Below are positions 1,288 to 58,019 of a stretch of 64,000 nucleotides of DNA, one piece after another; within the stretch, counting starts at the first letter, position 1, and the number at the start of each line of letters is the position of its first letter. The stretch comes from Pseudomonas benzenivorans (GTDB lineage: Bacteria > Pseudomonadota > Gammaproteobacteria > Pseudomonadales > Pseudomonadaceae). The notes under the pieces were generated by a model, which was given only the letters and a program-made list of their open reading frames with translations, was not told the DNA's origin and searched no databases. The stretch lies in the NCBI RefSeq assembly GCF_033547155.1, contig NZ_CP137892.1, positions 4,278,001 through 4,342,000 on the forward strand, read 5' to 3'. Position numbers and translations under genes: made by a program.

Positions 1288-1300
1288 TCGCCAGATGACC

Positions 1301-1346
1301 TGTAGGGTGGGTCGAGGCGCACAGCGCCGCTACCCATCGCCACCCG
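1301..1346. repeat. Intergenic GGTGGGT...GGCGC...GCGCC...ACCCA repeat element
   Basis: The aguB-aguA gap contains a hairpin-forming sequence, GTAGGGTGGGT followed by GGCGC, then GCGCC and TACCCATC. The same layout recurs in the opposite orientation between sbp and cysT (39424-39490). Such short, imperfectly palindromic GTAGGGTGGGT elements are familiar in Pseudomonas intergenic regions. Function is unknown; it may simply form an RNA hairpin between the two agu genes. Confidence 0.45.
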
Positions 1347-1430
1347 ACTATGGCTAGCGCTACGCTTAACCTACGCGGCCCGACCTGTGCGGGCCACTCC
1401 CCCTAGCCAGTTCCACGTTTTGGTGACCCA

Positions 1431-2537: not shown

Positions 2538-2570
2538 GCCCCAGGGCCCGGGTTGGCCCCGTCAGCCAAC

Positions 2571-4291
<1,721 letters not shown>

Positions 4292-6601: not shown

Positions 6602-7867
6602 TTACAGCAGCGGCAGCGTGTAGCTGACGATCAGACGGTTCTCGTCGATGTCGTTGGCGAAGTTGGAACGCACCGCGGCGTTGCGCCAGCGCACGCCGAG
6701 GTTCTTCAGCGCACCTTCCTGGAACACGTACATCAGCTCGGTATCGCGCTCCCACTCCTTGCCCTCGGAACGGTTGGCGCCCAGCTCGACGTTGTCGCCG
6801 GTCAGGTAGCGGGTCATGAAGGTCAGGCCAGGGATGCCGATGGAGGCGAAGTTGAAGTCGTAGCGCGCCTGCCAGGACTTCTCGTCCTTGTTGGCGAAAT
6901 CGCTGATCTGCACGTAGTTGACGAGGAAGGGGTCGGTACCGTTGATATAGGCGAAACCGGTGTCGCCGCTCATCTTCTGGTAGCCCAGGCCGAAGCTGTG
7001 GCCGCCCAGGCCGTAGGTGACCATGGCACCGAGGGCCTTGTTGTCGACGTTACTGCGCGAGCCGTCGTCGGTGGAGCGGGCATAGCGCAGGTCGGTCTTC
7101 AGGCTCTGCTTGTCGCCCAGCGGCAGCACATGCACCAGATTGAAGGAGTTCTGCTTGTACAGGTCCTCCAGGTTGGAGTGGTAGTAGGACGCGGTCAGGT
7201 CCTGGGTGAGCTTGTAGCTGCCGCCGAGGAACTGGAAGGAATCGGTCGTGGTGCCGCCGGTGGTGGTGATGCCGCGTTGACCGCCGCGGGTGATGGCGAT
7301 GTCCTCGAAGTCGCCGGAGTTGCGGTGGTTGACTTCGCGCAGGTAGCCGCCATCCAGGGTCAGGCCATCGATCTCCTGGGAAACCAGGTGGCCGCCCTTG
7401 AACACCTGCGGGGTCAGGCGGCTGTCGCTGGAGGCGATGGCCATGTTCTTGAACTGCATGCTGCCGGCCCGCAGGGTGCTCTTGGAGGCCTTGACCTTGG
7501 CGGCGACAGCCAGGTCGGAGGAGTAGTCCTGGGAGCCGCCCGACGACTGATCGGGCACCAGCAGGCCGCTGCCGGCGGTGCCGTCGCCGGAGTCCAGCTT
7601 GAAGCCGAGCATGCCGATGGCATCCAGGCCGAAGCCCACGGTGCCTTCGGTGTAGCCCGACTCCGCGCGCAGGATGAAGCCCTGGGCCCACTCTTCCTGC
7701 TTGGCCTGGCTCGGGGTCGGCCGGCTGTCCTGACGGAAATCGCGGTTGAAGTAGAAGTTGCGCGCCTCCAGGCTGGCCTTGCTGTCCTTGATGAACTCGG
7801 CCTGGGCCAGCGGGCTCAGGGACAGGGTGCCGGCGGCGATGGCCAGTGCCAGGGTGGTCTTTCTCAT
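6602..7867 (-). CDS. oprE: OprD-family outer-membrane porin, OprE-like
   Basis: A 421-residue protein with a cleavable signal peptide (about residues 1-23, ending LAQA) followed by EFIKDSKASLEARNFYFNRDFR, the start of mature OprD-family porins, and a C-terminal YTLPLL strand. The 18-strand family carries amino acids and small organic acids across the outer membrane. OprE is chosen because the P. aeruginosa oprE gene lies in the same setting, between aguBA and a diguanylate cyclase gene; family identity is certain but the symbol rests mainly on synteny. The substrate is not readable. A GGAG ribosome site precedes the ATG. Confidence 0.8.
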   Translation of the reverse strand: MRKTTLALAIAAGTLSLSPLAQAEFIKDSKASLEARNFYFNRDFRQDSRPTPSQAKQEEWAQGFILRAESGYTEGTVGFGLDAIGMLGFKLDSGDGTAGSGLLVPDQSSGGSQDYSSDLAVAAKVKASKSTLRAGSMQFKNMAIASSDSRLTPQVFKGGHLVSQEIDGLTLDGGYLREVNHRNSGDFEDIAITRGGQRGITTTGGTTTDSFQFLGGSYKLTQDLTASYYHSNLEDLYKQNSFNLVHVLPLGDKQSLKTDLRYARSTDDGSRSNVDNKALGAMVTYGLGGHSFGLGYQKMSGDTGFAYINGTDPFLVNYVQISDFANKDEKSWQARYDFNFASIGIPGLTFMTRYLTGDNVELGANRSEGKEWERDTELMYVFQEGALKNLGVRWRNAAVRSNFANDIDENRLIVSYTLPLL

Positions 7868-8334
7868 CGTGATTTACTCCAGTGTTTTAGGGGTGACACA
7901 CCGGCCCGGCGCAGGCTTCGCAACGAAGAGGCAGGCGCGAGCCGAATCCGATCGCCACAGCGCCCCGCCCTGGGTGGCCGTCATAGGGCTGTCCAGGACG
8001 CTGAAACGAGGCTGGGCGAGGATGATTCAGGGGCGCGGGACGGGCCGCCGACCGCGGACGAATGGAGCGGGCCTGGGAGCGATGGAACAGCAACAGGAGA
8101 GGTTCATCGGCGCGGGTCTCTTCATTGTTATTGTGCGCCAGCCCAGGGGGCCGGCTTGGGTCTGAAGAGCCATAGGCAAATACTGCGCCAGAAGCCAAGG
8201 CACGCGAAGAAAGGCTCTGGCTCAAGGGGGCGGCAGCTGTGTCAGGGCCGCGAGGGGCCGAGGGACCAAGGCGGGTGGGCGGCTTTCCGCCCACTCGCAG
8301 TGCGCCATCGGCGGATTATCGCCATAAGCGGGCG
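7868..8334. other. 467-base intergenic region upstream of the porin
   Basis: No convincing gene is seen. A minus-strand open frame (7887-8294) is low-complexity, Pro/Ala/Arg-rich and unlike a protein. The stretch should hold the porin promoter and leader and the 3' end of the diguanylate cyclase transcript. A hairpin with 8-base arms (8275-8282 and 8287-8294) lies 41 bases after the cyclase stop and may terminate it. Confidence 0.5.
8275..8294 (-). terminator. Possible terminator after the PAS-GGDEF gene
   Basis: GTGGGCGG and CCGCCCAC form a stem with a 4-base loop 41 bases beyond the stop at 8335. There is no clear T-run, so this is a weak call. Confidence 0.35.
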
Positions 8335-9306
8335 CTAGCCACGGACGATCTGGTTCTTGCCCTGGCGCTTGGCCAGGTACATGGCCGCATCGGCGCGGGC
8401 GAACAGCGCATCCAGACTCTGATCGCTGCGCTCCAGGCTGGTCAGGCCCTGGCTGATGGTGATGCCGAACGACTTGCCCTGGTGCGCGAACCCCAGGCGC
8501 TTGACCTCGCGCTGCAGGCGCTCGGCGATCTGCCCGGCCAGTGCCGGCTCGCAGCCGGGAAACAGGGCGGCGAACTCCTCGCCGCCGATGCGCCCGAACA
8601 GGTCGCCACGACGCAACACCGAGGCGCCGCATTGGGCCAGGCGCTGCAGCACCCGGTCGCCCATCTGGTGGCCGTACCTGTCGTTGATCTGCTTGAAGTC
8701 ATCGATGTCGAGCAACAGAAAGGCCAAGGGCGTGCCGAACTGGCGGGCGCGCTCGAACTCGCCCAGGGCGCAGTCGAAGAAGTGCCGGCGGTTGCTGCTC
8801 TGGGTCAGCACGTCGGTGGTGGCCAGGCGATGCAGCTCCCCCTCCAGTCGCTTCTTCTCGGTGATGTCCTCGGCGATGCCGACGATGATCTGCGCCTGCC
8901 CCGCGGCGCTCTGGTGGCTGATGAAGCACTTGTCGTTGAGCCAGCGCAGCTGTCCGTCGCCGCGGATGATGCGGTACTCGCGGCTCTCCACCGCACCGGC
9001 GTCCAATACCTTGGCCAGGCTCTCGGCGGCATAGTCGAGGTCATCCGGATAGATGCAGTTGCGCCACTCGTCGTAGTCGGCCAGCAGCAAGGCAGCCGAA
9101 CGGCCGAAGATCTGCTCGTAGGCCGGACTGACATAGATCACCCGTTGCTGCTGCCAGTCGAAGGCCCAGAGCACGGCATTGACACTGCCGAGCAGGGTAC
9201 TGAACAGCTGCTCGCGCTCACGCAGGCGCGCCACTTCCGAGCGGCAATGCAACAACGCCAGGGTCAGCTCCTCCAACTCGACCGGGATAGGACTGTGCTC
9301 GTCCAT
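8335..9306 (-). CDS. PAS-GGDEF diguanylate cyclase
   Basis: A soluble 323-residue protein with a short N-terminal helix, a PAS domain at about 35-155 (ending AEDITEKKRLEGEL) and a GGDEF domain at about 160-323. The active-site motif is intact as GGEEF at 241-245, and an RRGD inhibitory site lies five residues before it, so product inhibition is expected. The usual DxLTGLxNRR entry motif is altered to DVLTQSSNRR. It should make c-di-GMP in response to a PAS-sensed signal. It occupies the same place as the cyclase gene PA0290 between oprE and desA in P. aeruginosa. No signal peptide or membrane segment is seen. Confidence 0.88.
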   Translation of the reverse strand: MDEHSPIPVELEELTLALLHCRSEVARLREREQLFSTLLGSVNAVLWAFDWQQQRVIYVSPAYEQIFGRSAALLLADYDEWRNCIYPDDLDYAAESLAKVLDAGAVESREYRIIRGDGQLRWLNDKCFISHQSAAGQAQIIVGIAEDITEKKRLEGELHRLATTDVLTQSSNRRHFFDCALGEFERARQFGTPLAFLLLDIDDFKQINDRYGHQMGDRVLQRLAQCGASVLRRGDLFGRIGGEEFAALFPGCEPALAGQIAERLQREVKRLGFAHQGKSFGITISQGLTSLERSDQSLDALFARADAAMYLAKRQGKNQIVRG

Positions 9307-9363
9307 AGAGCCGCTCCGCAGACTGCAGGGGGAATACCCTCAGCATAGAGCGTCACAACGAAA

Positions 9364-9385
9364 AAGCCCGCCGTACGGCGGGCTT
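9364..9385 (-). terminator. Rho-independent terminator of the desaturase gene
   Basis: A 10-base stem AAGCCCGCCG/CGGCGGGCTT with a TA loop is followed, on the minus strand, by a run of T (the AAAAA at 9361-9365 on the plus strand). It begins 22 bases after the desaturase stop. Confidence 0.85.
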
Positions 9386-9406
9386 GGCAGATGCGGCGCG
9401 GGCCGC

Positions 9407-10594
9407 TCAGTGCGCGGCGGCCGGACGCAGGGAGTAGCTCTGCAGCTGCTCGGCGAAGTCGCGCAGGGACTGGATGCCGCTGGCCTCGGCCTCGTGCACC
9501 CACTGCTTGATCGCCTCGAGCATCTCGTGGCCGTTGGAGCTGGTCTTGGCCCAGATCTGCTGCAGGGCCAGGCGCTTCTCGTAGATCACCTTGAGCGCAT
9601 GGCTCTGCGCCAGCATGGCGTCGATGCGCAGCTGCTGACTGTCCTGCAGCAGACTCGGCTCGCGGGCCAACAGGCGCTTGGCACGGCGGAACTGGTGGCG
9701 TACCGAGGCGTCGGCCTTGAGCAGCTCCTGCTTGACCAACGGCCCGATCACCAGCCTGCGGTACTGGGCCATGATCTGGAAACGGTTGTTGAGGATGGCC
9801 ATGGCGGTGTCCATGTCCAGCTGGCGCTTGCCCTCGACCCGATGGGCGATCGGCGCCACCCGCTGCACCTTGGCCAGCCCCAGCAGGCTGAACAGCTTGA
9901 TCCAGGCCCAGCCCATGTCGAACTCCCACTTGCGCACCGACAGCTTGGCCGAGTTCGGGTAGGTGTGGTGGTTGTTGTGCAGCTCCTCGCCGCCGATCAG
10001 GATGCCCCAGGGCAGCAGGTTGGTGGCCGCGTCGCGGCACTCGAAGTTGCGGTAACCGACGGCATGGCCCAGGCCATTGATCACCCCGGCGGCCCACACC
10101 GGAATCCACATCATCTGCACCGCCCACACGGTCATGCCGAGCACGCCGAACAGGGCCAGGTCGATGATCGCCATCAGGGTCACGCCGCCGATCGGGTAGC
10201 GTGAATAGAGGTTGCGCTCGATCCAGTCGTCGGGGCAGTTCTTGCCATAGATGCGCAGGGTTTCCGCGTTCTTCGCCTCCTCCTGGTACAGCTCGGCGCC
10301 CTTGCGCAGCACGGTACCCAGGCCCTTGATCACCGGGCTGTGCGGATCGTCGAGGGTTTCGCACTTGGCGTGGTGCTTGCGGTGGATGGCGGTCCACTCG
10401 CGGGTGTTCTGGCCGGTGGTCAGCCACAGCCAGAAGCGGAAGAAATGCTTCAGTAGCGGGTGCAGTTCCAGGGCGCGGTGCGCCGAGTAGCGGTGCAGGT
10501 AGACGGTGACGCTGACGATGGTCACGTGCGTCAGCACCAGGGTGACCGCGATCAGTTGCCAGACCGACAGGTCGAGAAAGCCGTTGTACCACAT
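9407..10594 (-). CDS. desA: Membrane fatty-acid delta-9 desaturase
   Basis: A 395-residue di-iron desaturase. All three histidine boxes are present: HRYSAH (34-39), HRKHH (71-75) and HNNHH (about 208-212), with hydrophobic pairs between them. The class introduces a cis double bond into saturated acyl chains to tune membrane fluidity in air. P. aeruginosa has two such enzymes, DesA acting on phospholipid acyl chains and DesB on acyl-CoA. DesA is chosen because it neighbours the same cyclase and GGDEF/EAL genes there. The C-terminal 100 residues are a charged helical tail. It is divergent from the next gene. Confidence 0.82.
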   Translation of the reverse strand: MWYNGFLDLSVWQLIAVTLVLTHVTIVSVTVYLHRYSAHRALELHPLLKHFFRFWLWLTTGQNTREWTAIHRKHHAKCETLDDPHSPVIKGLGTVLRKGAELYQEEAKNAETLRIYGKNCPDDWIERNLYSRYPIGGVTLMAIIDLALFGVLGMTVWAVQMMWIPVWAAGVINGLGHAVGYRNFECRDAATNLLPWGILIGGEELHNNHHTYPNSAKLSVRKWEFDMGWAWIKLFSLLGLAKVQRVAPIAHRVEGKRQLDMDTAMAILNNRFQIMAQYRRLVIGPLVKQELLKADASVRHQFRRAKRLLAREPSLLQDSQQLRIDAMLAQSHALKVIYEKRLALQQIWAKTSSNGHEMLEAIKQWVHEAEASGIQSLRDFAEQLQSYSLRPAAAH

Positions 10595-46422: not shown

Positions 46423-46947
46423 TCAGGCCCCGCTCGGCCCCGTCCGGATACGGGTCGGCCCGGCGCGCTCGACCACCGCCCGCTCCAGTTCGCGGCGCAG
46501 GCCGAGGAGGAAGGCCGCCTCGGCCACCACGAACAGCGGCCCGATCGCCAGCCCCATGAGGTCGTCGACGAAGGCCGGCTTGCGCCCCTCGTAATGGTGG
46601 CCGACGAACTGAATGACCCAGCCGACCACGAACAGCCCCAGGCCCGCGCTCAGCCACAGCGCCGTGCCCTGGGCCGCCAGCGCCATGCCGGCCCACAGGC
46701 ACAGCCCCAGCAGGGCGGCCATCAGCAGGCCGAAACGCAGGTCCAGGCGCAGGTAGAAGGCCGCGGCCAGCAGCGCCGCCAGGGTCGCCGGCGACAACCA
46801 CAGGCCGGCCAACGCCAGGCCCGGCCGCGACAGCAGCACCGCGACCGCGAGGACGATCAGCGGGATGCCGATGAAGTGGCTGGCGATATTGCGCCGGTCG
46901 CGGTGGTAGGCGGCGTACTGGCTCAGGTATTCGACCAGGGTCTTCAT
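46423..46947 (-). CDS. Mpo1-like (DUF962) membrane protein
   Basis: 174 residues with four hydrophobic segments and the conserved His motifs YHRDRRNIASHFIGIP near residue 15 and QFVGHHYEGRKPA near 113. Yeast Mpo1 is an iron-dependent dioxygenase that alpha-oxidises 2-hydroxy fatty acids; the His residues are the presumed metal ligands. The bacterial substrate is not known. It is divergent from the Crp/Fnr gene. Confidence 0.82.
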   Translation of the reverse strand: MKTLVEYLSQYAAYHRDRRNIASHFIGIPLIVLAVAVLLSRPGLALAGLWLSPATLAALLAAAFYLRLDLRFGLLMAALLGLCLWAGMALAAQGTALWLSAGLGLFVVGWVIQFVGHHYEGRKPAFVDDLMGLAIGPLFVVAEAAFLLGLRRELERAVVERAGPTRIRTGPSGA

Positions 46948-47041
46948 CGGGCTTGTCCTCGTGGCGGGCGGGTCGGATGATGATGGTCCCGGCCCACCGC
47001 GTCCCTCTGTCGGCTAGCCGACAAATCAACGGAGATCGCCG

Positions 47042-47719
47042 ATGAACGATGCCCAGCGCGCCCGCCTGCGGGGCGGCCACTGGTTCGCCGCCCTGCCCGA
47101 GGCCCTGCAGCAGGCCCTGCTGGCCGCCGCCCGGGAGCAGCGCCTGGAGGCCGGGCAGCGCCTGTTCCGCCGCGGAGACCCGCCCAGCGGGCTGTACGCG
47201 GTGCTGGAAGGGGCCATGCGCGTCGGCGCGGTCAGCCCCGACGGCAAGGAGGCGCTGCTGACCCTGATCGAGCCGCCCTACTGGTTCGGCGAGATCTCCC
47301 TGTTCGACGGCCAGCCGCGTACCCACGACGCCTTCGCCGAGTGCCCCAGCACCCTGTTGCTGGTGCCCCAGGCCGAGCTGCTGGCCCTGCTCGAACGCGA
47401 GCCGCGCTACTGGCGCGACTTCGCCCTGCTGATGAGCCAGAAGCTGCGCCTGGCGTTTATCGCCCTGGAGGAGATGAGCCTGCTGCCGGCCGCGCCGCGC
47501 CTGGCCCGACGCCTGCTGCTGATCGCCGAGAATTACGGCGAGGGCGAGCCACGTCGGGTCATCCACCTGGCCCAGGAGCAGCTGGCCCTGATGCTGGCGA
47601 TCTCGCGGCAGACCACCAACCAGATCCTCAAGGAGCTGGAGGCCCAGGGCATCCTGCGCCTGAGCTACGGCGAGATCGAGCTGCTCGACCTGCCGCGCCT
47701 GCGCCAGGCGGCGCGCTGA
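47042..47719 (+). CDS. Crp/Fnr-family transcriptional regulator
   Basis: 225 residues: a cyclic-nucleotide-binding-type beta barrel (about 12-130; GLYAVLEGAMRVGAVSPDGKE, PPYWFGEISLFDGQPRTHDAFAE) and a winged helix (about 150-220; LAQEQLALMLAISRQTTNQILKELEAQGILRL). The N-terminal cysteine cluster of Fnr is absent, so it is not an iron-sulfur oxygen sensor. GGAGA precedes the ATG. The effector is unknown. Confidence 0.88.
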   Translation: MNDAQRARLRGGHWFAALPEALQQALLAAAREQRLEAGQRLFRRGDPPSGLYAVLEGAMRVGAVSPDGKEALLTLIEPPYWFGEISLFDGQPRTHDAFAECPSTLLLVPQAELLALLEREPRYWRDFALLMSQKLRLAFIALEEMSLLPAAPRLARRLLLIAENYGEGEPRRVIHLAQEQLALMLAISRQTTNQILKELEAQGILRLSYGEIELLDLPRLRQAAR

Positions 47720-47811
47720 GCCGCGGGCGCTGCCACAAGCGGAAACAATGCCGGAGCGAACGCCCGCCCCGGGCCATGGTCTATCCCCATTCCCCCAGGA
47801 GCCCCAGCCCG

Positions 47812-49818
47812 ATGCCGACACAGCCGCCCAGCGCCGCCCCCTCCAACGCCTTGCCGGCGGTGCTGGCCGGCCCCCTGCTGCGCCGCCTGGAGCCCCAGCG
47901 CCTGGTGCTCTGGCTGGTCGGCTCGCGGGCGCTGTCGCTGCGCCTGTGCCTGTGCCATGGCGGCGCGGAGCAAAGCGACTACCCGTTGGACGAACGCCAC
48001 TGCCGGGTGCTGCAGGTCGGCGAGCACGCCTTCGTCCACCTGATCGACCTGCGCCTCAACGCGCCGCTGCCGCAGGACGTGCGGATCGACTACGACCTGC
48101 TGATCGAAGGCGACGGGCCCGCGCAGGGCATCGCCGAGTGGGCGCCGCACCTGCTGTACGACGGCACCGAACAGCCGAACTTCGTCCTGCGTACGCGCCT
48201 CGACCATTTGCTCCACGGCTCCTGCCGCAAGCCGCACCACGCCGCGGCCGACGGCCTGCTGTGCGCCGACCGCCTGCTGGCCGAGCAGCCGGCGCCCGAA
48301 CAGCGCCCGGCGCTGCTGCTGATGAGCGGCGACCAGATCTACGCCGACGACGTCGCCGGGCCCATGCTGTGCGCCATCCACCAGCTGATCGCGCGCCTGG
48401 GGCTGTTCGGCGAACGCCTGGAAGGCGCCCTGGTCGACGACAGCGACGCCCTCTACGGCCATGCGGTCGGCTACTACCAACGCAGCGAACTGCTGCCGGA
48501 ACTGCAGAGCAACGTCGGCCTGCGCGAGCGCTTCTTCGGCGGGGTCAGGAAGCCGATCTTCACCACCAGCAGCGCCGACAACCACCTGGTGACCCTGGCC
48601 GAGGTGCTGGCCATGTACCTGCTGGCCTGGTCGCCGACGCCCTGGACCCTGCTCGGCAGCGGCCGGCCGGCCCTGGATGCCGAGCGGGCGCGGCGCTACG
48701 AGGACGAGCGGGGCCGTATCGAGGCGTTCCGCGACGGCCTCGGCGGCGTCGCCCGCGCCCTGGCCCACCTGCCGACCCTGATGATCTTCGACGACCACGA
48801 CGTCACCGACGACTGGAACCTCTCGGCGCAGTGGGAGGAAACCGCCTACGGCCACCCCTTCTCCCGGCGCATCATCGGCAACGCCCTGATCGGCTACCTG
48901 CTGTGCCAGGGCTGGGGCAACGACCCGGACGTGTTCGCCGATGCGCTGGAGCAATTCCAGGCCATGGCCGCCGGACGCGACGGGCGCAACCAGCTGGACG
49001 GCGCCGCCCAGGACGCCCTGATCGACCGCCTGCTGCACTTCCACCACTGGCACTACGTGCTGCCGACCGAGCCGGCGCTGCTGGTGCTGGACACCCGCAC
49101 CCGGCGCTGGCGCAGCGAGCGCCACCCCCAGCGGCCGTCCGGGCTGCTCGACTGGGAGGGCCTGTGCGAGCTGCAGCAGGCGCTGCTCGACCACCCGGCG
49201 GCGATCATCGTGTCGCCGGCGCCGATCTTCGGGGTCAAGCTGATCGAGGCGGTGCAGCGGCTCTTCACCTGGTGCGGCTACCCGCTGCTGGTCGATGCGG
49301 AGAACTGGATGGCCCATCGCGGCGCCGCCCGGGTGATCCTCAACATCTTCCGCCACTCGCGCACCCCGGGTTGCTACGTGGTGCTGTCCGGCGACGTGCA
49401 CTACTCCTTCGTCTACCGGGTGCTGATCCGCCACCGCAAGAGCGCCCCGCAGATCTGGCAGATCACCAGCAGCGGCCTGAAGAACGAGTTCCCGCGGCGC
49501 CTGCTGGACTGGTTCGACCGCCTCAACCGCTGGCTCTACTCGCCGCGCTCGCCGCTCAACTGGCTGACCAAGCGCCGGCGCATGCAGGTGGTGCCACTGA
49601 TCCCCAGCCGCAGCAAAGCCGGCGAGCGCCTGTGGAACGGCGCGGGCCTGGGCCAGGTGCGTTTCGACGAGCGCGGCCGGCCGAGCGAGATTCTCCAGCA
49701 CAACGCCGACGGCTCGGCGCCGGTCGGCTTCGTCGAGGATCGCGACGCCGCCCAGCGCGCGGCCCAGCAGGCGCAGGCCGGCCGCACGCTGGCGGCCGGC
49801 GACAAGTCCGCGCGCTAG
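47812..49818 (+). CDS. PhoD-like metallophosphatase
   Basis: 668 residues. The catalytic region has GDQIYADD (about 172-179), FDDHDVTDDWN (about 326-336) and a C-terminal SGDVHYS (about 527-533), the metal-binding blocks of PhoD-type phosphatases. No Tat signal or other export signal is seen at the N terminus, so a cytosolic enzyme is likely, unlike secreted alkaline phosphatase D. Residues 1-130 form an extra N-terminal domain. The start at 47812 follows AGGAG at rather long spacing; an upstream in-frame ATG at 47776 is an alternative. Confidence 0.82.
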   Translation: MPTQPPSAAPSNALPAVLAGPLLRRLEPQRLVLWLVGSRALSLRLCLCHGGAEQSDYPLDERHCRVLQVGEHAFVHLIDLRLNAPLPQDVRIDYDLLIEGDGPAQGIAEWAPHLLYDGTEQPNFVLRTRLDHLLHGSCRKPHHAAADGLLCADRLLAEQPAPEQRPALLLMSGDQIYADDVAGPMLCAIHQLIARLGLFGERLEGALVDDSDALYGHAVGYYQRSELLPELQSNVGLRERFFGGVRKPIFTTSSADNHLVTLAEVLAMYLLAWSPTPWTLLGSGRPALDAERARRYEDERGRIEAFRDGLGGVARALAHLPTLMIFDDHDVTDDWNLSAQWEETAYGHPFSRRIIGNALIGYLLCQGWGNDPDVFADALEQFQAMAAGRDGRNQLDGAAQDALIDRLLHFHHWHYVLPTEPALLVLDTRTRRWRSERHPQRPSGLLDWEGLCELQQALLDHPAAIIVSPAPIFGVKLIEAVQRLFTWCGYPLLVDAENWMAHRGAARVILNIFRHSRTPGCYVVLSGDVHYSFVYRVLIRHRKSAPQIWQITSSGLKNEFPRRLLDWFDRLNRWLYSPRSPLNWLTKRRRMQVVPLIPSRSKAGERLWNGAGLGQVRFDERGRPSEILQHNADGSAPVGFVEDRDAAQRAAQQAQAGRTLAAGDKSAR

Positions 49819-49853
49819 ACCGGCCATTTATAGGGGCGAAGTGGCACGGCCTG

Positions 49854-50420
49854 TTAGGTTCTGTACGAAAAGTACTGCCGTAGGCATCGCAGCGTGCAAG
49901 CCAGCGTGACCATCGCGCCAAAACTTCTGGCGAGCTTGTCGTAGCGGGTGCCGATTCTCCGGCTCTCTTTCAGCCAGCCAAACATCCGCTCGATGATGTT
50001 CCGTTGCCGGTATTTCGGGCGATCAAATAGCCGAGGTAGTCCTGGCTTGGGTTTGCGCTTCATGGTGCGCTGCGGAATCACTGGCTGCATGCGGTAGCGG
50101 TCGCAGTACTGGCGCAGATGCTCGGCGTCGTAACCTTTGTCGGCCAGTAACCAACGACAACGCTTGCGAGGCCGTCCCGACTTTCCGGGGATACGCACCT
50201 GCTCCAAGAGCGGCTGAGCATGTGCAATGTCGCTGGCTTGCCCCGGTGTCAGCATGAAGCGAAGAGGTATCCCATTGGCATCGCAGATCAGGTGAATCTT
50301 GGTAGTCAGGCCGCCTCGGCTACGTCCCAAGGCATGGTCTACCGGTTCTTCTGGCCCCCCTTTTTCCCGGCGCCAGAAGAGGCTCGGGTTGCGCGCACCG
50401 CGGTGGAGTCGATCATCCAC
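49854..50420 (-). CDS. IS5-family transposase, second frame (orfB)
   Basis: 188 residues as an open frame, with transposase similarity from about residue 14. It holds the remaining DDE residues: LLADKGYD (about 92-99) and RNIIERMFGWLKESRRIGTRYDK (about 140-162). Translation is expected by frameshifting from orfA rather than from its own ATG. The TAA stop lies at the very edge: its first two bases come from the TA target duplication, so the stop is completed by host DNA. Confidence 0.88.
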   Translation of the reverse strand: MDDRLHRGARNPSLFWRREKGGPEEPVDHALGRSRGGLTTKIHLICDANGIPLRFMLTPGQASDIAHAQPLLEQVRIPGKSGRPRKRCRWLLADKGYDAEHLRQYCDRYRMQPVIPQRTMKRKPKPGLPRLFDRPKYRQRNIIERMFGWLKESRRIGTRYDKLARSFGAMVTLACTLRCLRQYFSYRT

Positions 50421-50768
50421 GTATCCAAATCAATCAGGCCTTCCTGATTCAACCGGACGTGCAATCGCTCAAGTACTCGCTCAAACGTGCCATCGTCTCG
50501 CCAGTCACGGAACCGTTGATACACCGTTGACCACGGGCCGAAACGTTCCGGCAGATCACGCCAGGCGGCTCCCGAGCAGAGGATCCAGAAGATGCCGTTG
50601 AGCACCAGCCGATCATCACTGCGAGGCCGGCCCATCTTCTGTTCCGGGGAAACCAGATCCTTGATCAACTCCCAGGCCGCATCCGGGAGTTCGTAGCGCC
50701 TTGCCATGTGGGCCTCCAGCCAATCATGGCGATGATTCTACCTGCACCGACTTTTCGTACAGAACCTA
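49855..50768 (-). mobile_element. IS5-family insertion sequence, IS427-type
   Basis: The element spans 49857-50766 (910 bases). Its ends, GGTTCTGTACGAAAAGT at the left and the reverse complement ACTTTTCGTACAGAACC at the right, are perfect terminal inverted repeats, flanked on both sides by a TA target duplication (49855-49856 and 50767-50768). The transposase is in two overlapping frames, as in IS427-group elements. The element looks complete and potentially active. It marks the left side of the A/T-richer island. Confidence 0.92.
50339..50707 (-). CDS. IS5-family transposase, first frame (orfA)
   Basis: 122 residues, starting MARRYELPDAAWELIKDLV and containing the first catalytic Asp of the DDE triad (DTWMIDSTAVRA near residue 98). 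It ends just after an A5G6 run (50355-50365 on the plus strand), where a -1 slip would join it to the second frame and yield the full transposase. Alone it is the N-terminal DNA-binding part. Confidence 0.9.
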   Translation of the reverse strand: MARRYELPDAAWELIKDLVSPEQKMGRPRSDDRLVLNGIFWILCSGAAWRDLPERFGPWSTVYQRFRDWRDDGTFERVLERLHVRLNQEGLIDLDTWMIDSTAVRATRASSGAGKKGGQKNR

Positions 50769-51001
50769 AGGGGCATGGCAATAAGTGCGGCCAGGAAGCA
50801 AAGGCAGAGATCGACCCGAAGCGGCCGGTGAAAACCAACAAGTTCGTGATCTGTCCCCGATTGCTCCCTACTTCGAGCCGAAGGCATGTCTGTGCTGGCT
50901 GTTACACAGAAGGGGATCGAAACCGAGGCAGATCGAGCACTACCGGCGCAAAGCCACTATGGCATGCTAGGATCGGCGCACATCTAACCAGGGAAGGCGT
51001 A
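50769..51001 (+). promoter_or_regulatory. Upstream region of the helicase-DarT-ARH operon
   Basis: 233 bases between the IS end and the helicase start. No gene with a ribosome site is seen, although the frame of the helicase is open through it. It must contain the operon promoter unless the IS supplies one. AGGGAAGG precedes the helicase ATG. Confidence 0.4.
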
Positions 51002-52411
51002 ATGAAGGCACTAATTGATGTGACACCGACTGCCGAGCAGTTGGCTCTGTTCTCACGCAACGGTCCTGGAGTGGAGATCATTCGTGGGGCAGCGGGTAGC
51101 GGGAAAACCACTACCGCACTTCTCAAACTTCGATCTCTGGCCGCGTTTTTTATCAATCGAGCTCGGCGTCAGGACAACCCTGACCCAGTGAGTGTCTTGG
51201 TGCTGACGTACAATCGCACTTTGCGCGGCTACATCAACGAACTCACGCAACAGCAGCTGCACGAAGAGCCTCTCATCCACCTGGAAATTCAGACCTTTAA
51301 CTCTTGGGCAAGGAGCCTTGTCCCACCAAGATTCATGATCATGGGTATTGAGGAATCGATGCAGGCCCTGAGAAGCTTCTCTGGTGCTATGAGGCTGGAC
51401 TCTCAATTTGTCGTAGAAGAAGCCTCATACGTGCTTGGCCGATTTCTACCGGATGATCTTGACGAATATTTAGGCGCACGCCGGGACGGTCGTGGCATCG
51501 CGCCTCGAATGGAGCGGTCAACCAGGCAGCTCTTACTTGACACCGTCATCCGCCCTTACATCCAGCTCAAGCGAAACAACCAGCTCCTAGACTGGAATGA
51601 CCTCGCAATTCAGCTTGCTAGTGAACAGGTGCGTGAGTATTCAGTCATTGTCGTTGACGAGAGCCAGGATTTTTCTGCCAATGAGGTTCGGGCGGTACTG
51701 AACCAGCGCGCTGAGCATGCGTCGACCACCTTCGTTCTGGACAGCGCGCAGAAAATATATGCCCGAAACTTCATCTGGCCTGAGGTAGGCGTCACTGTCA
51801 CCTCTGGGAGAAGCAGTACTCTTCAGACGAACTACAGAAACACGAAGCAGATCGCTCGCTTTGCGGCTGCACTGCTCGAAGGGTTAGCACTGGATGACAA
51901 CGGGACTATGCCCAATTACGACAGTGCAATTTCTGAGGGGGAATTGCCGTGTGTGTTGACTGGGCCATACCAGAATCAGGTTCGTTTTGCCTTGAGCTAC
52001 ATCCAGGAAAATGTGGATCTGACACTAGACTCGGTAGCGTTTCTACATCCCAAGGGGTGGTTCAGAGATTTGACCCCAGAACTTGATCGCCTCGAAATGC
52101 CTTGGGTATCACTGACAGGAACACCAGATTGGCCACAGGGCAGTCAGAACATTGCGCTGTGCACACTTCACTCAAGTAAAGGTCTTGAGTTCGACCACAT
52201 CATCATGCTCGGTCTGGATGGAAGTATCGTCGACGTACGCCCCCCGGATGACGACGCTGAGGATTATGAGCCATCTGCAAGATTGCGCCGGCTGATCGCG
52301 ATGGGGGTAGGTCGTGCCAGAAAGAGCGTGATTATCGGCTTTAAAAGGAATGACGCCCCCGACATCATCCGGTTTTTCGGAGAGGGGCTATACCAAGGAG
52401 TTGACGTATGA
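51002..52411 (+). CDS. UvrD/Rep-like superfamily 1 helicase
   Basis: 469 residues with SF1 motifs in order: Walker A GAAGSGKT (29-36), motif Ia VLVLTYNRTL, motif II VVDESQDF (Asp219-Glu220), motif IV LQTNYRNTKQIA, motif V LHSSKGLEFD and motif VI GVGRARKSVIIG. It is shorter than UvrD (about 720 residues), as many mobile-element and defence helicases are. Codon use is clearly more A/T-rich than in backbone genes, indicating transfer. Its stop overlaps the ATG of the DarT-like gene, so the two are translationally coupled. It probably acts on DNA damaged or modified by that toxin, by inference from the operon. Confidence 0.88.
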   Translation: MKALIDVTPTAEQLALFSRNGPGVEIIRGAAGSGKTTTALLKLRSLAAFFINRARRQDNPDPVSVLVLTYNRTLRGYINELTQQQLHEEPLIHLEIQTFNSWARSLVPPRFMIMGIEESMQALRSFSGAMRLDSQFVVEEASYVLGRFLPDDLDEYLGARRDGRGIAPRMERSTRQLLLDTVIRPYIQLKRNNQLLDWNDLAIQLASEQVREYSVIVVDESQDFSANEVRAVLNQRAEHASTTFVLDSAQKIYARNFIWPEVGVTVTSGRSSTLQTNYRNTKQIARFAAALLEGLALDDNGTMPNYDSAISEGELPCVLTGPYQNQVRFALSYIQENVDLTLDSVAFLHPKGWFRDLTPELDRLEMPWVSLTGTPDWPQGSQNIALCTLHSSKGLEFDHIIMLGLDGSIVDVRPPDDDAEDYEPSARLRRLIAMGVGRARKSVIIGFKRNDAPDIIRFFGEGLYQGVDV

Positions 52412-53049
52412 GCGTAGAGAGGGTTGTCGCGAGTCGGGCTATCGAATCGATCGTTCATTTCACTACGAACCGAGGCTCGTTAGGTGTGTTCGCGACTGGC
52501 GCTTTACAGTCCCGGCAACGGCTCAATGTAGATGCTCAATTGAAGCATATCTTTCAGCCCAACGCCGCCTATCGAGGCAAGGATGCGGACTGGCTTGACT
52601 ACGCGAATCTATCGATCACTCATATCAACTCCGAATTCTTCAGAACAGCCTCCAATAATTGGCACAGGGAGCGGGGATTTTTCTGGTGCATTCTGGATTT
52701 CTCGCCACAGATCCTGAGTCATGAAGGTGTCTGGTTCACAACGACCAATAACATCTACACCGGCGTCAGGCGTGGACAAGGGCCAGATGGACTGGAGGCC
52801 GCGTTCCAGAACCCTGTAACACTCTGGGACGGAAAGATGGCGCGGCGCTCGCCAAATCAGCCCGCGAACCGGACAACCTGCCCACAGGCGGAAGTGCTTT
52901 ACCCTGTCGGCGTATCCACGGAATACTTGCAGCGAATCTACGTCAGAACTGAATCCGAGAGTGATGAATTGGCTGCGCAGATGTCTGCTGTTGGCCATAG
53001 AGAAGTGACGGTCGTGGTCAACCCCGACCTGTTCGTAGAAATCAGGTGA
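52408..53049 (+). CDS. DarT-type DNA ADP-ribosyltransferase (DUF4433 family)
   Basis: 213 residues, the usual size of DarT toxins, which attach ADP-ribose from NAD+ to bases in single-stranded DNA and block replication. Family marks: N-terminal VHFTTNRGSLGVFATGALQS with His17 in the NAD pocket, YANLSIT (65-71) and the catalytic Glu162 in CPQAEVLYPVGVS. The C-terminal RTESESDELAAQM and VVVNPDLF strands also fit. AAGGAG precedes the ATG, which overlaps the helicase stop. No DarG macrodomain gene is adjacent; instead an ADP-ribosylglycohydrolase starts 7 bases later. Base specificity cannot be predicted. Confidence 0.82.
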   Translation: MSVERVVASRAIESIVHFTTNRGSLGVFATGALQSRQRLNVDAQLKHIFQPNAAYRGKDADWLDYANLSITHINSEFFRTASNNWHRERGFFWCILDFSPQILSHEGVWFTTTNNIYTGVRRGQGPDGLEAAFQNPVTLWDGKMARRSPNQPANRTTCPQAEVLYPVGVSTEYLQRIYVRTESESDELAAQMSAVGHREVTVVVNPDLFVEIR

Positions 53050-53056
53050 AAACCCA

Positions 53057-54847
53057 ATGTCAGACCTTAGGCTGAAACGTACTATTTCCTCCGCGCTGTG
53101 GTCGGCCTATGCAGATGCGCTAGGGTTTCCCACAGAGCTTGCATCCGATAGGACTGTTCAACAGCGCCTAGGGCATTCCACTATTACTCGGACAGAACCG
53201 TGGAAGCGTATTGTGGGTGGACGATTCGGTGCAACCGTATCCCTGCCTGCCGGCGCCTATTCGGATGATACCCAACTGCGGTTAGCGACCAGCAGGGCCA
53301 TACGCGGCAATGGTTATTTCGATGTGGAGTCATTCGCTAAGATCGAGCTCACCGTGTGGCAAGCCTATGCGTTGGGAGCAGGCCGTGGCAGCAAGGCAGC
53401 CGCAGCAGCATTGTGCAACCGCAGTAATAACTGGTTTAGCAACTTTTTCACCAATTATGAAAACGGCGGAGGCAATGGCGCAGCAATGCGCATACAGCCG
53501 CACGTATGGGCCGCCAGCAATCTGGCGGACAAGGCATCTTACATCCCCGACGTCATCCGCAATGCGCTTTGCACTCATGGGCATATGCGAGGTATCGCGG
53601 GCGCGGTTATTCATGCCGTCAGCCTTGCTCATGCCTTTGACACCGGAAAACCCTTGCCCCCCGATCAATGGCCAGCATTGGCCAATGACATCCGCGCGAT
53701 TCCAAAAATGATCGCTGGCGACAACGAGTTGATGACTTTTTGGGTACCTACGTGGACGCAGAAGAGCCGGCAAACTCTTGAAGATGCAGTTGATACCGTT
53801 GCACGTGAATGGGAAGACGCCTCACGGAGTGTCGCGTCAATACTACACACCCGGCGTCCACACGATTATTCGGCGACTTATGAAGAAGTTGTCAAAGCGC
53901 AAAACGGCCTGAGCGCCGAGGAGCGTGGGTCTGGACTTAAATGCGCTCTGTTTGCCAACGTCGCAGCGTGGATATCTCCCAAAGCAGGTGCGCAAGAAAG
54001 CATTCAGATCGTTGCGAACCTTCTAGACAGTGACACAGATACGATCGGAACAATGGCTGGCGCGCTCATCGGGGCTGCTTATCCTGATGCAAGCTACCTC
54101 GGACCTATTCAAGATCACATTTACATCCGTGATGAAGCGGAACGGCTATACGACGTCAGCCAAGGGAAAAACACCTACAGTTTCAGCTATCCTGACCTTC
54201 TCTACTGGCAGCCACCTCGTACCATGGTCGACATTTTGGGGATCAAGGACAATCGGCTCCACATCGATGGACTCGGCGACGTTACCCCCCTTGAAGCCCC
54301 ATTTACTGGTCAGAAAGGCACAAGTTGGCAATGGTTTCTTCTGTCCACAGGCCAGACCATTCTCAGCCGTTTACGGACGGATTTGCTCACACAAGCACAG
54401 CAACGAAAAGAGTTCCCTTCTGAAAAGCTGGACACTCCTGATCTCTTTGACCAGACCATAGAAAATAGAGAGCGAAAAACTGCTCGCAATGCAGATGCGC
54501 ACGCCACCAGCAAAACGACCTCAGACGATGCTGAGCAGTCGAATATTGAAAGCACCTCCGGTGAGCTAGCTTCTTTATCAACACAGCCGAGCAAATTCGA
54601 AAGCCTAGTTGAGCATCATGCCCTATCCGCAGCTGCTCAAGCCCCATCAGAAAGCCAGGCTTCGACGCCGATCGATCTGGACAAGTTGACCAACGAAGCA
54701 ATTCGGGGCTTCGACCCGCAGACCATTGGCCGTCACATCCTGTTGTTGGCCGAACAACCAAATGCCATAGAACTGTCCATTGCCTATAGCGCCGTTGTGG
54801 TAAAGGCGCGGGCGGCACGCTTGAAGTACAAGTCCCGCAATGGATGA
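53057..54847 (+). CDS. ADP-ribosylglycohydrolase (ARH/DraG family) with a long C-terminal extension
   Basis: 596 residues. The ARH domain (about 8-375) starts ISSALWSAYADALGFPTE, has the metal motif GAYSDDTQL (66-74) and a second metal block DSDTDTIGTMAGALIGAAY (about 325-343). ARH enzymes remove ADP-ribose from proteins or small molecules, and some from DNA. Residues 440-540 are low-complexity Ser/Thr/Glu-rich, followed by a conserved-looking helical end (IDLDKLTNEAIRGFDPQTIG). Placed directly after a DarT-like toxin, it is the likely antitoxin or reversal enzyme. The extension is not part of the usual family and may contact the toxin or helicase. Confidence 0.85.
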   Translation: MSDLRLKRTISSALWSAYADALGFPTELASDRTVQQRLGHSTITRTEPWKRIVGGRFGATVSLPAGAYSDDTQLRLATSRAIRGNGYFDVESFAKIELTVWQAYALGAGRGSKAAAAALCNRSNNWFSNFFTNYENGGGNGAAMRIQPHVWAASNLADKASYIPDVIRNALCTHGHMRGIAGAVIHAVSLAHAFDTGKPLPPDQWPALANDIRAIPKMIAGDNELMTFWVPTWTQKSRQTLEDAVDTVAREWEDASRSVASILHTRRPHDYSATYEEVVKAQNGLSAEERGSGLKCALFANVAAWISPKAGAQESIQIVANLLDSDTDTIGTMAGALIGAAYPDASYLGPIQDHIYIRDEAERLYDVSQGKNTYSFSYPDLLYWQPPRTMVDILGIKDNRLHIDGLGDVTPLEAPFTGQKGTSWQWFLLSTGQTILSRLRTDLLTQAQQRKEFPSEKLDTPDLFDQTIENRERKTARNADAHATSKTTSDDAEQSNIESTSGELASLSTQPSKFESLVEHHALSAAAQAPSESQASTPIDLDKLTNEAIRGFDPQTIGRHILLLAEQPNAIELSIAYSAVVVKARAARLKYKSRNG

Positions 54848-54903: not shown

Positions 54904-54964
54904 CCAGCTTTTCGAGCGACCGAAATGAGCCAGAAGCACCATTGTCGAATGGCCGCTTTGACCG

Positions 54965-55142
54965 GATTCTGTTGAAAAAGTCGGTTTTGGCCAGAGTCGC
55001 CTGTCCATAGTCCCAAATGCGGCTGATTTGCGCGTTGCTATGTGAAATCCAAGGCAGTTCTGCCTCGGAAATGGCTCAGATTTCAGCGTAGGCAACGCAC
55101 TTTTATGGGCGGAAATCTCGAAGGGACTTTTTCAACAGAATC
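54965..55142. mobile_element. 178-base MITE-like element with 18-base perfect terminal inverted repeats
   Basis: GATTCTGTTGAAAAAGTC (54965-54982) and its exact reverse complement (55125-55142) bound a short non-coding interior. Ends of this type belong to IS5-group elements, so this is probably a non-autonomous derivative mobilised by a transposase elsewhere. It does not match the ends of the IS at 49857-50766. It marks the right side of the island. Confidence 0.75.
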
Positions 55143-55218
55143 GGCCGATAGTCGCCACTCCCCCCCGGCGCCTATCGGCCCGGCCCAGGCAAACCACCCT
55201 GCACCTTCGGCGCACGAC

Positions 55219-56532
55219 TCAGCGCAGCTTCTCCAGCAACTGGTAGTACCACATGCCGACCGCCAGCATCGGGTTGCCCAGCTGCTCGCCCAGGGGCACC
55301 TTGATCTGCCGGCAGGCGGCGAAGGTGTCGAAGCGGCCGAGGGTGCCGGTCAGGGCCTCGGCCATGATCTCGCCCATGACGTGGCTGGTGGCGATGCCGT
55401 GGCCGGAGTAGCCCTGGCAGTACCAGACGTTGTCCGAGAGCTTGCCGAGCTGCGGGATGCGGTTCATCACGATGCCCATGGCGCAGCTCCACTGGAAGTC
55501 GATGGCCACGCCCTTGAGGGCCGGGAAGGTGCGCTCGATGGCCGGGCGCAGCTCGGCGGCGATGTCCCGCGAGTCGCGCCCCGAGTAGTTGGCGCCGCCA
55601 CCGAACAGCAGGCGGCCGTCGGCGGTCAGGCGGTGGTAGTCGAGGACGAAGCGGCAGTCGTAGACCGCCAGGTCCCGGGGGTTGATCGCCTTGGCCAGCT
55701 CGCCCAGCGGCGCGGTGGTGACGATGCCGCCCATGGCCGGGAAGATCAGGCCCTTGAGTTTCTGCGGTTCCAGCTTGTGGTAGACGTCGCCGGCCAGCAG
55801 CACCTGGTCGGCGTCGATGCGTCCGTCGGCGGTGATCACCGCCGGGTTGGCGCCATGGACGATCTCCAGCACCTCGGAGTGTTCGAAGATCAGCGCACCC
55901 AGGCCCTCGGCCGCGCGGGCCTCGCCGATGCACAGGTTGAGCGGGTGCAGGTGCAGGTTGCGGTCGTTCCTGATCGCCCCGCAGTACAGCTCGCTACCCA
56001 GCTGTTCGCGCACGCCGGCGCCGTCCAGCAGGCTGACCTCCGCGCCCATGCCGCGGCGCACGGCCTCCTCGTAGGCGTCTTCCAGCTCGGCCATGTGGCT
56101 GGGCTTCATCGCCGCGTGCAGGTGGCCGTGCTTGAGGTCGCAGGCGATGCCGTACGTCGCCACGCGGTTCTCGATGATGTCGTGGCCGCGCCAGCGCAGC
56201 CGCCAGATGAAGTCGTCGACTTCCGCGCCCAGGCTGTTGCGCATCTGCTTGCGCATGGCGGCGTCGCCGGACAGGCTGCCGGTGACCTGGCCGCCGTTGC
56301 GCCCGGTGGCGCCCCAGCCGATCTTCTTCGCCTCGACCACGGCCACCTTGAGGCCGCGCTCGGCCAGCTCGACGGCGCTGGCCACGCCGGTGAAGCCGCC
56401 GCCGATGATCACCACATCGACGCGGTGGCGGCCCTGCAGGGTCGGGTACTGGGTTTCCTGGTTGAGCGTGGCGCTGTAGTAGGACGGGCAGCGCTCGGCG
56501 GCCGGGGTTACGGGAGGGGTGATGGCATTCAT
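55219..56532 (-). CDS. FAD-dependent gamma-glutamylputrescine oxidase-type enzyme (PuuB family), second copy
   Basis: 437 residues: CPSYYSATLN near the start, dinucleotide motif VVIIGGGFTGVASAVELAERG (about 40-60), GRNGGQ (about 77-82), LLFGGGANYSG and GYSGHGIATSHVMGE near the C terminus. It is clearly related to but distant from the oxidase at 28709. The family oxidises gamma-glutamylated polyamines. It lies downstream of a glutamine synthetase-like ligase on the same strand (110-base gap), giving a second ligase-oxidase pair without a linked regulator. Confidence 0.88.
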   Translation of the reverse strand: MNAITPPVTPAAERCPSYYSATLNQETQYPTLQGRHRVDVVIIGGGFTGVASAVELAERGLKVAVVEAKKIGWGATGRNGGQVTGSLSGDAAMRKQMRNSLGAEVDDFIWRLRWRGHDIIENRVATYGIACDLKHGHLHAAMKPSHMAELEDAYEEAVRRGMGAEVSLLDGAGVREQLGSELYCGAIRNDRNLHLHPLNLCIGEARAAEGLGALIFEHSEVLEIVHGANPAVITADGRIDADQVLLAGDVYHKLEPQKLKGLIFPAMGGIVTTAPLGELAKAINPRDLAVYDCRFVLDYHRLTADGRLLFGGGANYSGRDSRDIAAELRPAIERTFPALKGVAIDFQWSCAMGIVMNRIPQLGKLSDNVWYCQGYSGHGIATSHVMGEIMAEALTGTLGRFDTFAACRQIKVPLGEQLGNPMLAVGMWYYQLLEKLR

Positions 56533-56642
56533 GGTCTGGTCCTTGTCGTCGGGCGGCCGCGCCGCCGTGGGGCCGCGCCAGGCGCGGCCCGGAAATATTG
56601 GGGTCGGGCGTAGGCTGGCCGCCCGACGCCGCGCGATTCGCC

Positions 56643-58019
56643 TCAGGCGTTGCTCAGGTACCAGCGCCAGTCCTGCTCGCCGACCTCGCCCATGAACTGG
56701 CGGTACTCGGCGCGCTTGATGGCCAGGTAGACCCGCAGGAATTCGACGCCCAGGGCCTCGCGGGCCCAGGCCGAACGCTCCAGGGCCTGGATGGAGGTCA
56801 GCCAGTCGGTCGGCAGCAACTCCTTGGCCTGGGCGTAGCCGTTGCCCTCGACCGGCGCGCCCGGGTCGAGCCGCGCGCAGATGCCGTGGTGGATGGCGGC
56901 GAGAATCGCCGCGGCGGCCAGGTAGGGGTTGGCGTCGGCGCCGCAGATGCGGTGCTCGATATGCCGGCTGGCGGCCGGCCCGCCCGGTACGCGCAGGCTC
57001 ACGGTGCGGTTGTCGATGCCCCAGCTCAAAGCCAGGGGCGCGTAGCTGTTGGCCTGGAAGCGCCGGTAGGAGTTGGCGTTGGGGCAGAACAGCAGCAGCG
57101 AATCCAGCAGATTCTCGAGCAGGCCGCCCAGGGCTTGCTTGAGCAGGCTGCCGGCCGGACCGTCGAGGTCGTCCGGCGGGCCGGCGAACAGGTTGGCGCC
57201 CCGGGCATCGGCCAGGCTGACGTGCATGTGCATGCCGGTGCCGGCCAGGTGATCGAAGGGCTTGGCCATGAAGCAGGCCTGCATCCCGTGCCGGTGCGCC
57301 ACGCCCTTGACCAGGCGCTTGTAACGCACCGCCTGGTCCATGGCGGCCAGCGCCGGACCGTGCTCCAGGGTGATTTCCACCTGGCCGGGGGCGTACTCGG
57401 AGATCGCCGTGCGCGCCGGAATGCCCTGGGCCTTGCAGGCGGCGTAGAGGTCGGCGAGGAAGGGTTCGAGCTGCTCCAGTTCGCGCAGGCCGTAGACCTG
57501 GGTGCTGCGCGGCCGGCCGCCGTCGGCATCCCGCGCAGGCTGCGGGCGACCCTGGGCATCGCGCTGCCGGTCGAGCAGATAGAACTCCAGCTCGCAGGCC
57601 ATCACCGGGTGATAGCCCGCGGCCTCGAGGCGCTCGATCACCTGCACCAGCACATGACGCGGGTCGGCCACGGTGGCCGGCAGGCCTTCTTCGGGGTGCA
57701 TGCCGACCTGCAGCGCGGCGGTGGGCACCTGGCGCCAGGGCAGGCGCACCAGGCTGCCGGCCAGCGGATAGGCGCGGCAGTCGATGTCGCCGACCTCCCA
57801 GACCAGGCCGGTGTCTTCGACATCCTCGCCGTGGATGCTCAGGCCGAGGATGGTGCTGGGCAGCGGCCGGCCGCTGCGGTACACCGCGAGCAGCTCCTCG
57901 CGGTGCAGCAGCTTGCCGCGGGGCACGCCATTGGCGTCGAGGATGAACAGCTCGAACAGTTCGATATCGGGGTGATGGGCGAGGAATGCCTCGGCCTCTT
58001 GCACGGCAGCGAATGACAT
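56643..58019 (-). CDS. Glutamine synthetase-family gamma-glutamylpolyamine ligase (PuuA/PauA type), second copy
   Basis: 458 residues of the GS fold: FELFILDANGVPRGKLL near residue 25, CELEFYLLDR, ISEYAPGQVEITLEHG, AGTGMHMHVSL and the HIEHRICGADANPYL block. Like PuuA it is shorter than GlnA and lacks the adenylylation site. It differs from the ligase at 30637 in several blocks (ISEYAPGQVE against TAELGPGQFE), so the two probably favour different amines. The ATG at 58019 is used; the upstream in-frame residues are not GS-like. Confidence 0.86.
   Translation of the reverse strand: MSFAAVQEAEAFLAHHPDIELFELFILDANGVPRGKLLHREELLAVYRSGRPLPSTILGLSIHGEDVEDTGLVWEVGDIDCRAYPLAGSLVRLPWRQVPTAALQVGMHPEEGLPATVADPRHVLVQVIERLEAAGYHPVMACELEFYLLDRQRDAQGRPQPARDADGGRPRSTQVYGLRELEQLEPFLADLYAACKAQGIPARTAISEYAPGQVEITLEHGPALAAMDQAVRYKRLVKGVAHRHGMQACFMAKPFDHLAGTGMHMHVSLADARGANLFAGPPDDLDGPAGSLLKQALGGLLENLLDSLLLFCPNANSYRRFQANSYAPLALSWGIDNRTVSLRVPGGPAASRHIEHRICGADANPYLAAAAILAAIHHGICARLDPGAPVEGNGYAQAKELLPTDWLTSIQALERSAWAREALGVEFLRVYLAIKRAEYRQFMGEVGEQDWRWYLSNA

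Follow-up and report, generated by a model that had tools for sequence, protein, structure and literature searches.

A mobile helicase–DarT–ADP-ribosylhydrolase operon of Pseudomonas benzenivorans as a candidate variant of the DarTG-type systems

Gene content of the operon

A 64,000-nucleotide stretch of Pseudomonas benzenivorans DNA (contig NZ_CP137892.1, positions 4,278,001 to 4,342,000; the whole stretch is called the window below) contains an operon of three genes, termed the trio here, for a superfamily 1 (SF1) helicase, a DarT-type ADP-ribosyltransferase and an ADP-ribosylhydrolase (ARH). A sequence-only reading of this DNA had described three tightly packed, A/T-richer genes at these positions, and this was confirmed: the helicase and DarT genes overlap by 4 bp, the ARH gene begins 7 nt after the end of DarT, and the GC content of the operon is 52-55%, against ~70% further out in the window (Table 1). 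The ATGA overlap suggests that the helicase and DarT are translationally coupled. The assignment of the three proteins in that reading, including Glu162 of DarT and both metal motifs of the ARH, agrees with Pfam searches and with residue conservation across the 58 complete loci described below.

From its motifs, the first gene is predicted to encode a compact SF1 UvrD-like helicase, with Pfam matches to UvrD-helicase (9.6e-9) and UvrD_C (1.3e-7). Motif I (GAAGSGKT) is found at residue 29, motif II (DESQD) at ~219, NYRN at 277, SSKGLEFD at ~390 and the motif VI arginine at R438. The motif assignment draws on the columns that are invariant among 24 helicases and on conservation over the 58 loci: all of these have DExQD, NxRN, S-K-GL and the Arg of motif VI, while 97% have the Walker A Lys. 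The best PADLOC models for this protein were C3a187 (NERD+UvrD) at 66.9 bits, then GajB at 59.9 bits.

The second protein matches the DarT family PF14487 (1e-19; 71.5 bits, curated cut-off 22.5), and has the DarT fold, its nearest structures being DarT enzymes. Its active-site set consists of H17, F18, R56, S69, N114, Q160 and E162, of which H17, N114 and E162 are conserved in 58 of 58 loci and R56 in 56; Asn114 aligns with N104 of DarT1. The score against the NCBIfam equivalog for toxin_DarT (NF048013) was 17.5 bits, below the 150 required; this model was matched at E<=0.01 by 12 of 30 relatives.

The third protein has the ARH/DraG fold with a two-metal site (ADP_ribosyl_GH, PF03747, 5.3e-29), and S69/D70/D71 and D326/D328 are invariant in all 58 complete loci. 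It consists of a core (residues 1-372), a small beta domain (~394-440), a disordered linker (455-535) and C-terminal helices (541-595). The ARHs of two distant trios (L154, 4619-6421; L155, 5693-7426) match a glyoxalase/bleomycin-resistance-like domain in their C-terminal part (E ~1e-4), unlike the window ARH with its helical C terminus. No match to NADAR-DarT1 (PF22397) was found anywhere in the window's genome, and its single macrodomain match lies far off, at 2.92 Mb, with none in the operon.

Table 1. Positions in the window of the operon genes and of the segment around them
Feature	Position	Strand	Remarks
SF1 UvrD-like helicase, operon's first gene	51002..52411	+	469 aa; ATG 51002, stop TGA 52411
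DarT1-lineage ADP-ribosyltransferase (predicted)	52408..53049	+	213 aa
ARH/DraG-family ADP-ribosylhydrolase	53057..54847	+	596 aa
ATGA overlap, helicase stop/DarT start	52408..52411	+	4 bp, read directly in the sequence
IS5-type insertion sequence, left edge of insert	49849..50774	-	two overlapping transposase reading frames; 25-nt terminal inverted repeats
MITE-like element, right edge of insert	~54964..55146	.	inverted ends GATTCTGTTGAAAAAGTC / GACTTTTTCAACAGAATC
Whole inserted segment	49725..55216	.	flanks 208 bp apart in relative G012 vs 5.49 kb here; GC dip

Recurrence of the three genes as a unit

To the extent covered by the searches below, the three genes, their linkage and their spread were directly observed. 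One genome per bacterial and archaeal species was scanned, with selection by DarT, which gave 58 loci. Linkage is conserved in other genomes: 57 of these 58 contigs carry the helicase, DarT and ARH genes in that order, and the remaining one (L063) starts inside DarT at the contig end and keeps the ARH gene. Among the 57, L024 and L047 have a helicase split into two open reading frames (ORFs), and L020, L042 and L057 each have one gene truncated at or near the contig end. The trio was also present in three of three viral contigs, with the ARH of L065 split behind residue 355, and in four of four plasmid hits, two of them nearly identical.

When 9 of the 67 records were dropped (two duplicates and seven with incomplete genes), a set of 58 complete loci remained, the window included. 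None of the 58 differs in gene order or strand, so the association is not due to chance, and the 4-bp helicase/DarT overlap recurs in 40. Pairwise distances of the three proteins are strongly correlated over these loci (helicase–DarT, r 0.883; helicase–ARH, 0.887; DarT–ARH, 0.855), and none of 1000 permutations gave values as high. Because the permutation ignores relatedness, these correlations show co-inheritance rather than contact. Such sequence comparisons indicate that the trio is inherited as one tightly coupled unit.

Among Pseudomonas genomes, the DarT profile matched 6 of 298 (five trios and one DarT1–NADAR pair), the ARH profile (E<=1e-20) matched 6 of 298 (the same five trios and one truncated remnant), and the helicase profile (E<=1e-40) matched 4 of 194, all with the trio. 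The remnant (G566:C25; L175, 7515-8579 and 9148-10530) retains only the C-terminal part of the ARH, with a SIR2-like PF13289 protein on the other strand and no DarT or helicase nearby, and is read as a decaying copy. A class-wide PF14487 search gave 27 matches in 25 of 369 genomes; within the 1.5 kb or less covered on each side of these, this ARH family was found only at the window's own locus, and the helicase in one other genome, G078. When the DarT profile was run against 398 genomes of the phylum, it picked out the window, one helicase–DarT–NADAR locus and two DarT1 loci. The system is thus rare and patchy. Trio records were assigned to seven phyla by their titles; outside Pseudomonadota and Actinomycetota these are metagenome-assembled genomes, in which binning errors are possible.

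Lineage of the transferase and exchange of erasers

Phylogenetic analysis placed the trio DarTs in a clade that is sister to the NADAR-linked DarT1 proteins (a 98/81 group). A 100/100 branch parts this clade from the macrodomain-linked DarTs, where a macrodomain partner was found in four of four scanned entries. The transferase is therefore of DarT1 lineage. The sequence-only reading had taken the operon for a DarTG-like cassette in which the macrodomain was replaced. An unrelated ARH does stand in the place of the eraser; because the transferase belongs to the DarT1 lineage, the eraser that was replaced would be NADAR and not a macrodomain.

In two loci (L100 in G078, 6701-9530; L153 in G936, 525-3334) the gene that comes directly after a helicase–DarT pair lies on the opposite strand and encodes NADAR-DarT1, with PF22397 matches of 1e-86 and 1.6e-89, respectively; this arrangement may be described as a helicase-bearing variant of DarTG1. 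Set against the trio, these loci constitute what appears to be a natural swap of ARH and NADAR. In a tree of 41 selected entries, ARH (27) and NADAR (8) alternate inside a DarT1-type superclade, with two to three changes of eraser label, although a single origin is possible. NADAR is the established eraser of the DarT1 guanine mark, according to an excerpt of PMC11543638. That the ARH does the work of NADAR here is best supported by the exchange of the two erasers beside a helicase–DarT pair, together with the erasure of the DarT1 mark by NADAR.

More distant trios were found on plasmids of Rhodococcus, Shinella and Streptomyces, where the trio's own profiles score 144-180 bits for the helicase, 35-71 for DarT and 187-218 for the ARH. 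Close behind the distant trio of the Rhodococcus sp. WAY2 plasmid, after a HigA/RelE pair, lie multiubiquitin-domain and ThiF-family genes (L154, 8168-9448). On plasmid pC052_C of Nostoc sp. C052 (L162, 13302-20050), an AAA_11/AAA_12 protein, presumably an Upf1-like SF1 protein, is followed by DarT and ARH between pglX and pglZ of a bacteriophage exclusion (BREX-1) operon; this DarT has an N-terminal extension of ~330 residues. A plasmid of Deinococcus sp. QL22 encodes an N-6 DNA methylase, DarT and NADAR in a row (L158, 1-5289), and the N-terminal part of that DarT (~650 residues) is without a Pfam match.

Mobile and defence context

That the operon is bounded by an insertion sequence (IS) and an element resembling a miniature inverted-repeat transposable element (MITE) had been noted from the sequence, and both were found. 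The IS5-type element upstream has inverted repeats at 49849-49873 and 50750-50774 and transposase ORFs of the DDE and DUF4096 types. The MITE-like element downstream has a second genomic copy at 1.08 Mb (71% identical), and related DNA occurs on three Pseudomonas aeruginosa plasmids (76% identity). Of six relatives compared, both flanks of the insert could be aligned only in G012 (left flank 46445-49724, right flank 55217-57797) and the right flank alone in the other five. Since the flanks are 208 bp apart in G012 and 5.49 kb apart here, the most plausible reading is that the IS, the operon and the MITE form a single low-GC segment of ~5.5 kb that was acquired as one.

In viral contig L065, a P2-like prophage, the trio is flanked on one side by the gene for a gpA-type replication protein (phrog_91) and on the other by that for a portal protein (phrog_68), beyond which come terminase, scaffold and capsid genes. 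As described in the available part of PMC9122126, P2 prophages have a hotspot between gpA and gpQ that holds anti-phage systems, and the slot of the trio in L065 corresponds to it; the main text of that paper makes no mention of DarT, DUF4433, UvrD or ADP-ribosyl. A second viral contig (L064) has the trio next to filamentous-phage genes for Zot and protein IV, and in L014 the Olokun genes OloA and OloB lie 465 bp behind it.

The flanks were scanned for 138 of 218 neighbouring ORFs at 63 loci, all from L002-L050. Among the top 25 of the 83 PADLOC families matched at E<=1e-10 were RmrA (three proteins), capP (three) and RmrT (two), with DpdF, PsyrT, OloA, OloB and MTase_II at one protein each; since many models may be matched by one and the same protein, numbers of families should not be taken for numbers of proteins. 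As a control, 106 ORFs were drawn from five Pseudomonas genomes, at 20 arbitrary places; they yielded five families (TnsB, TnsC, TniQ and two REase_I models), with one protein each. Pfam matches in the flanks included HTH_3 (six), phage integrase (five) and IrrE/ImmA (four). One such neighbour, a protein with helix-turn-helix and IrrE/ImmA (Peptidase_M78) domains, is encoded in L015 (4205-5440), upstream of the helicase ORF at a distance of 114 bp; it has related neighbours in L006, L007 and L053 and is possibly a regulator. The copy in the P2 hotspot, the Olokun neighbour and the DarT–ARH pair inside a BREX operon point to a role in phage defence.

Proposed mechanism and alternatives

The reading favoured here, with a probability of roughly 0.6, is that the three genes of the trio make up a mobile defence system of the toxin–antitoxin type that acts by ADP-ribosylation of DNA. 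Like DarT1, the transferase would attach ADP-ribose to a base of single-stranded DNA, guanine being the likeliest. The ARH would clear host DNA of the mark, serving as an enzymatic antitoxin, as NADAR does in the sister loci. The helicase, whose translation would be coupled to that of DarT and which probably binds this enzyme, would unwind invading or replicating foreign DNA and thereby provide single-stranded substrate for DarT. Modification of foreign DNA would then outrun erasure, and phage replication would stop. The writer and eraser roles are suggested by what is known of the families and by the eraser swap; the target base, the role of the helicase and phage defence are inferred. A fuller proposal, which we regard as tentative and give clearly less than an even chance, is a separate kind of immunity: that the helicase delivers a DarT1-type transferase to foreign DNA and that the ARH is the first known eraser of its fold for base-linked DNA ADP-ribose, having swapped with NADAR as the antitoxin of the same helicase–DarT core.

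Several points weigh against the defence reading. The residue aligned with D54, essential in DarT1, is D in only 40 of 58 loci, and the guanine contacts K74/Y75 of DarT1 are without a conserved alignable counterpart in the trio DarT, so the target base is uncertain. The ARH-like enzymes assayed so far leave base-linked ADP-ribose in place or hardly attack it. In the excerpts available of the papers concerned, SCO5809 and human ARHs are inactive on guanosine-ADPr RNA (ADPr, ADP-ribose; PMC11833690), the DarT mark on DNA is not removed by ARH3 (PMC9967889), and bacterial ARH-like proteins are inactive on U-ADPr, with low but detectable activity of human ARH3 (PMC13036486). No match was found among 50,697 phage records, and the PADLOC control was drawn from Pseudomonas loci only.

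The occurrence of the trio on plasmids, near integrases and transposases and, here, on an insert bounded by IS and MITE would also suit an addiction module only, in which DarT and ARH stabilise plasmids, integrative and conjugative elements and prophages, the helicase is a passenger with a part in repair or maintenance and phage defence is incidental. A passenger helicase, however, would not be expected to hold a constant place, with the ATGA overlap shared by 40 of 58 loci, or to recur in NADAR-type loci, and the trio has known defence genes as neighbours and occupies the P2 hotspot for anti-phage systems; this explanation is considered unlikely. About as unlikely is a protein switch on the model of DraT and DraG, which reversibly regulate nitrogenase reductase. 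The DarT-like enzyme would then modify a protein, for example the helicase, the ARH would reverse this, and helicase activity would be the effector. The ARH erasers known so far work mainly on arginine or serine residues of proteins (PMC8883491, in excerpt), toxin/immunity pairs of an ADP-ribosyltransferase (ART) with an ARH are among the fold matches (6drh and 8za7), and the helicase and ARH co-vary strongly (r 0.887).

An RNA target, with the helicase an RNA helicase and the ARH an eraser of marks on phage or host RNA, would have parallels in the anti-viral mRNA ADP-ribosyltransferase CmdT, as far as a partial account of it goes, and in the ARH-like SCO5809, which acts on phosphate-end ADPr-RNA (excerpt of PMC11833690). 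We consider it improbable: the matches of the helicase are to UvrD/PcrA/Rep and to helicases of DNA defence, GajB among them, and the nearest structures of the transferase are DarT enzymes, which act on single-stranded DNA. Least probable is that the locus is an ordinary DarTG1 or DarTG2 whose NADAR or macrodomain partner is encoded elsewhere, with the ARH as a bystander. The genome does encode one distant macrodomain protein (2.92 Mb), but it is without a NADAR-DarT1 match, the ARH adjoins DarT in every trio-family locus, and among 298 Pseudomonas genomes the full-length ARH family occurs only in those with the trio.

If the defence reading is correct, the trio would represent a third writer/eraser pairing beside DarT2–macrodomain and DarT1–NADAR, and ADP-ribose on DNA bases would become the substrate of a third hydrolase superfamily. 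A helicase–DarT core with interchangeable NADAR or ARH would offer a ready comparison of one kind of writer with two unrelated erasers, and the constant helicase bears on how a toxin that modifies single-stranded DNA is directed against foreign DNA and away from that of the host. With records in seven phyla and in prophage, plasmid and defence-island settings, the trio may be a widespread immune system missed by current catalogues.

Relation to known systems

The trio was not found described in the open-access literature searched, and an earlier listing is possible in preprints, supplements and most subscription papers, which were outside this scope. Two papers, each represented by an excerpt, may be leads to an earlier notice: PMC11543638 refers to DarTs in operons with 'different hydrolases', after a survey by de Souza and Aravind, and PMC9035990 to a segment of a genomic island that encodes two DUF4433 proteins together with a DNA helicase and a macro-domain protein. 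The trio is regarded here as a new variant of the DarTG-type systems, with an ARH eraser plus a helicase.

The Gabija system likewise couples a UvrD-type helicase to an effector that attacks nucleic acid, and GajB models match the trio helicase at <=60 bits. Its partner GajA is a nuclease, whereas the partner in the trio is a predicted DNA-tagging transferase with an eraser and no GajA nuclease is present. In ART–ARH effector/immunity pairs, such as 6drh (which we take to be Tre1–Tri1) and 8za7 from Listeria, both among the fold matches, an ARH fold also guards against a linked ADP-ribosyltransferase. The transferases of such pairs modify proteins and are not of the DarT type, and there is no helicase there. 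DarTG2 (DarT2 with the DarG macrodomain) shares with the trio a toxin of the same Pfam family and the writer/eraser logic, but its transferase belongs to another clade, the trio has Ser69 where DarTG2 has the Tyr of [H-Y-E], and the operon is without a macrodomain. DarTG1 (DarT1–NADAR) is closer, with the same transferase lineage and fold, most active-site residues and an enzyme toxin beside an enzyme eraser; it differs in that the eraser of the trio has the ARH fold, an SF1 helicase heads the operon and the genome is without NADAR-DarT1. The helicase–DarT–NADAR loci L100 and L153 have a related compact helicase and DarT adjoining on one strand, and differ from the trio in having NADAR on the opposite strand, whereas the ARH of the trio lies within the operon.

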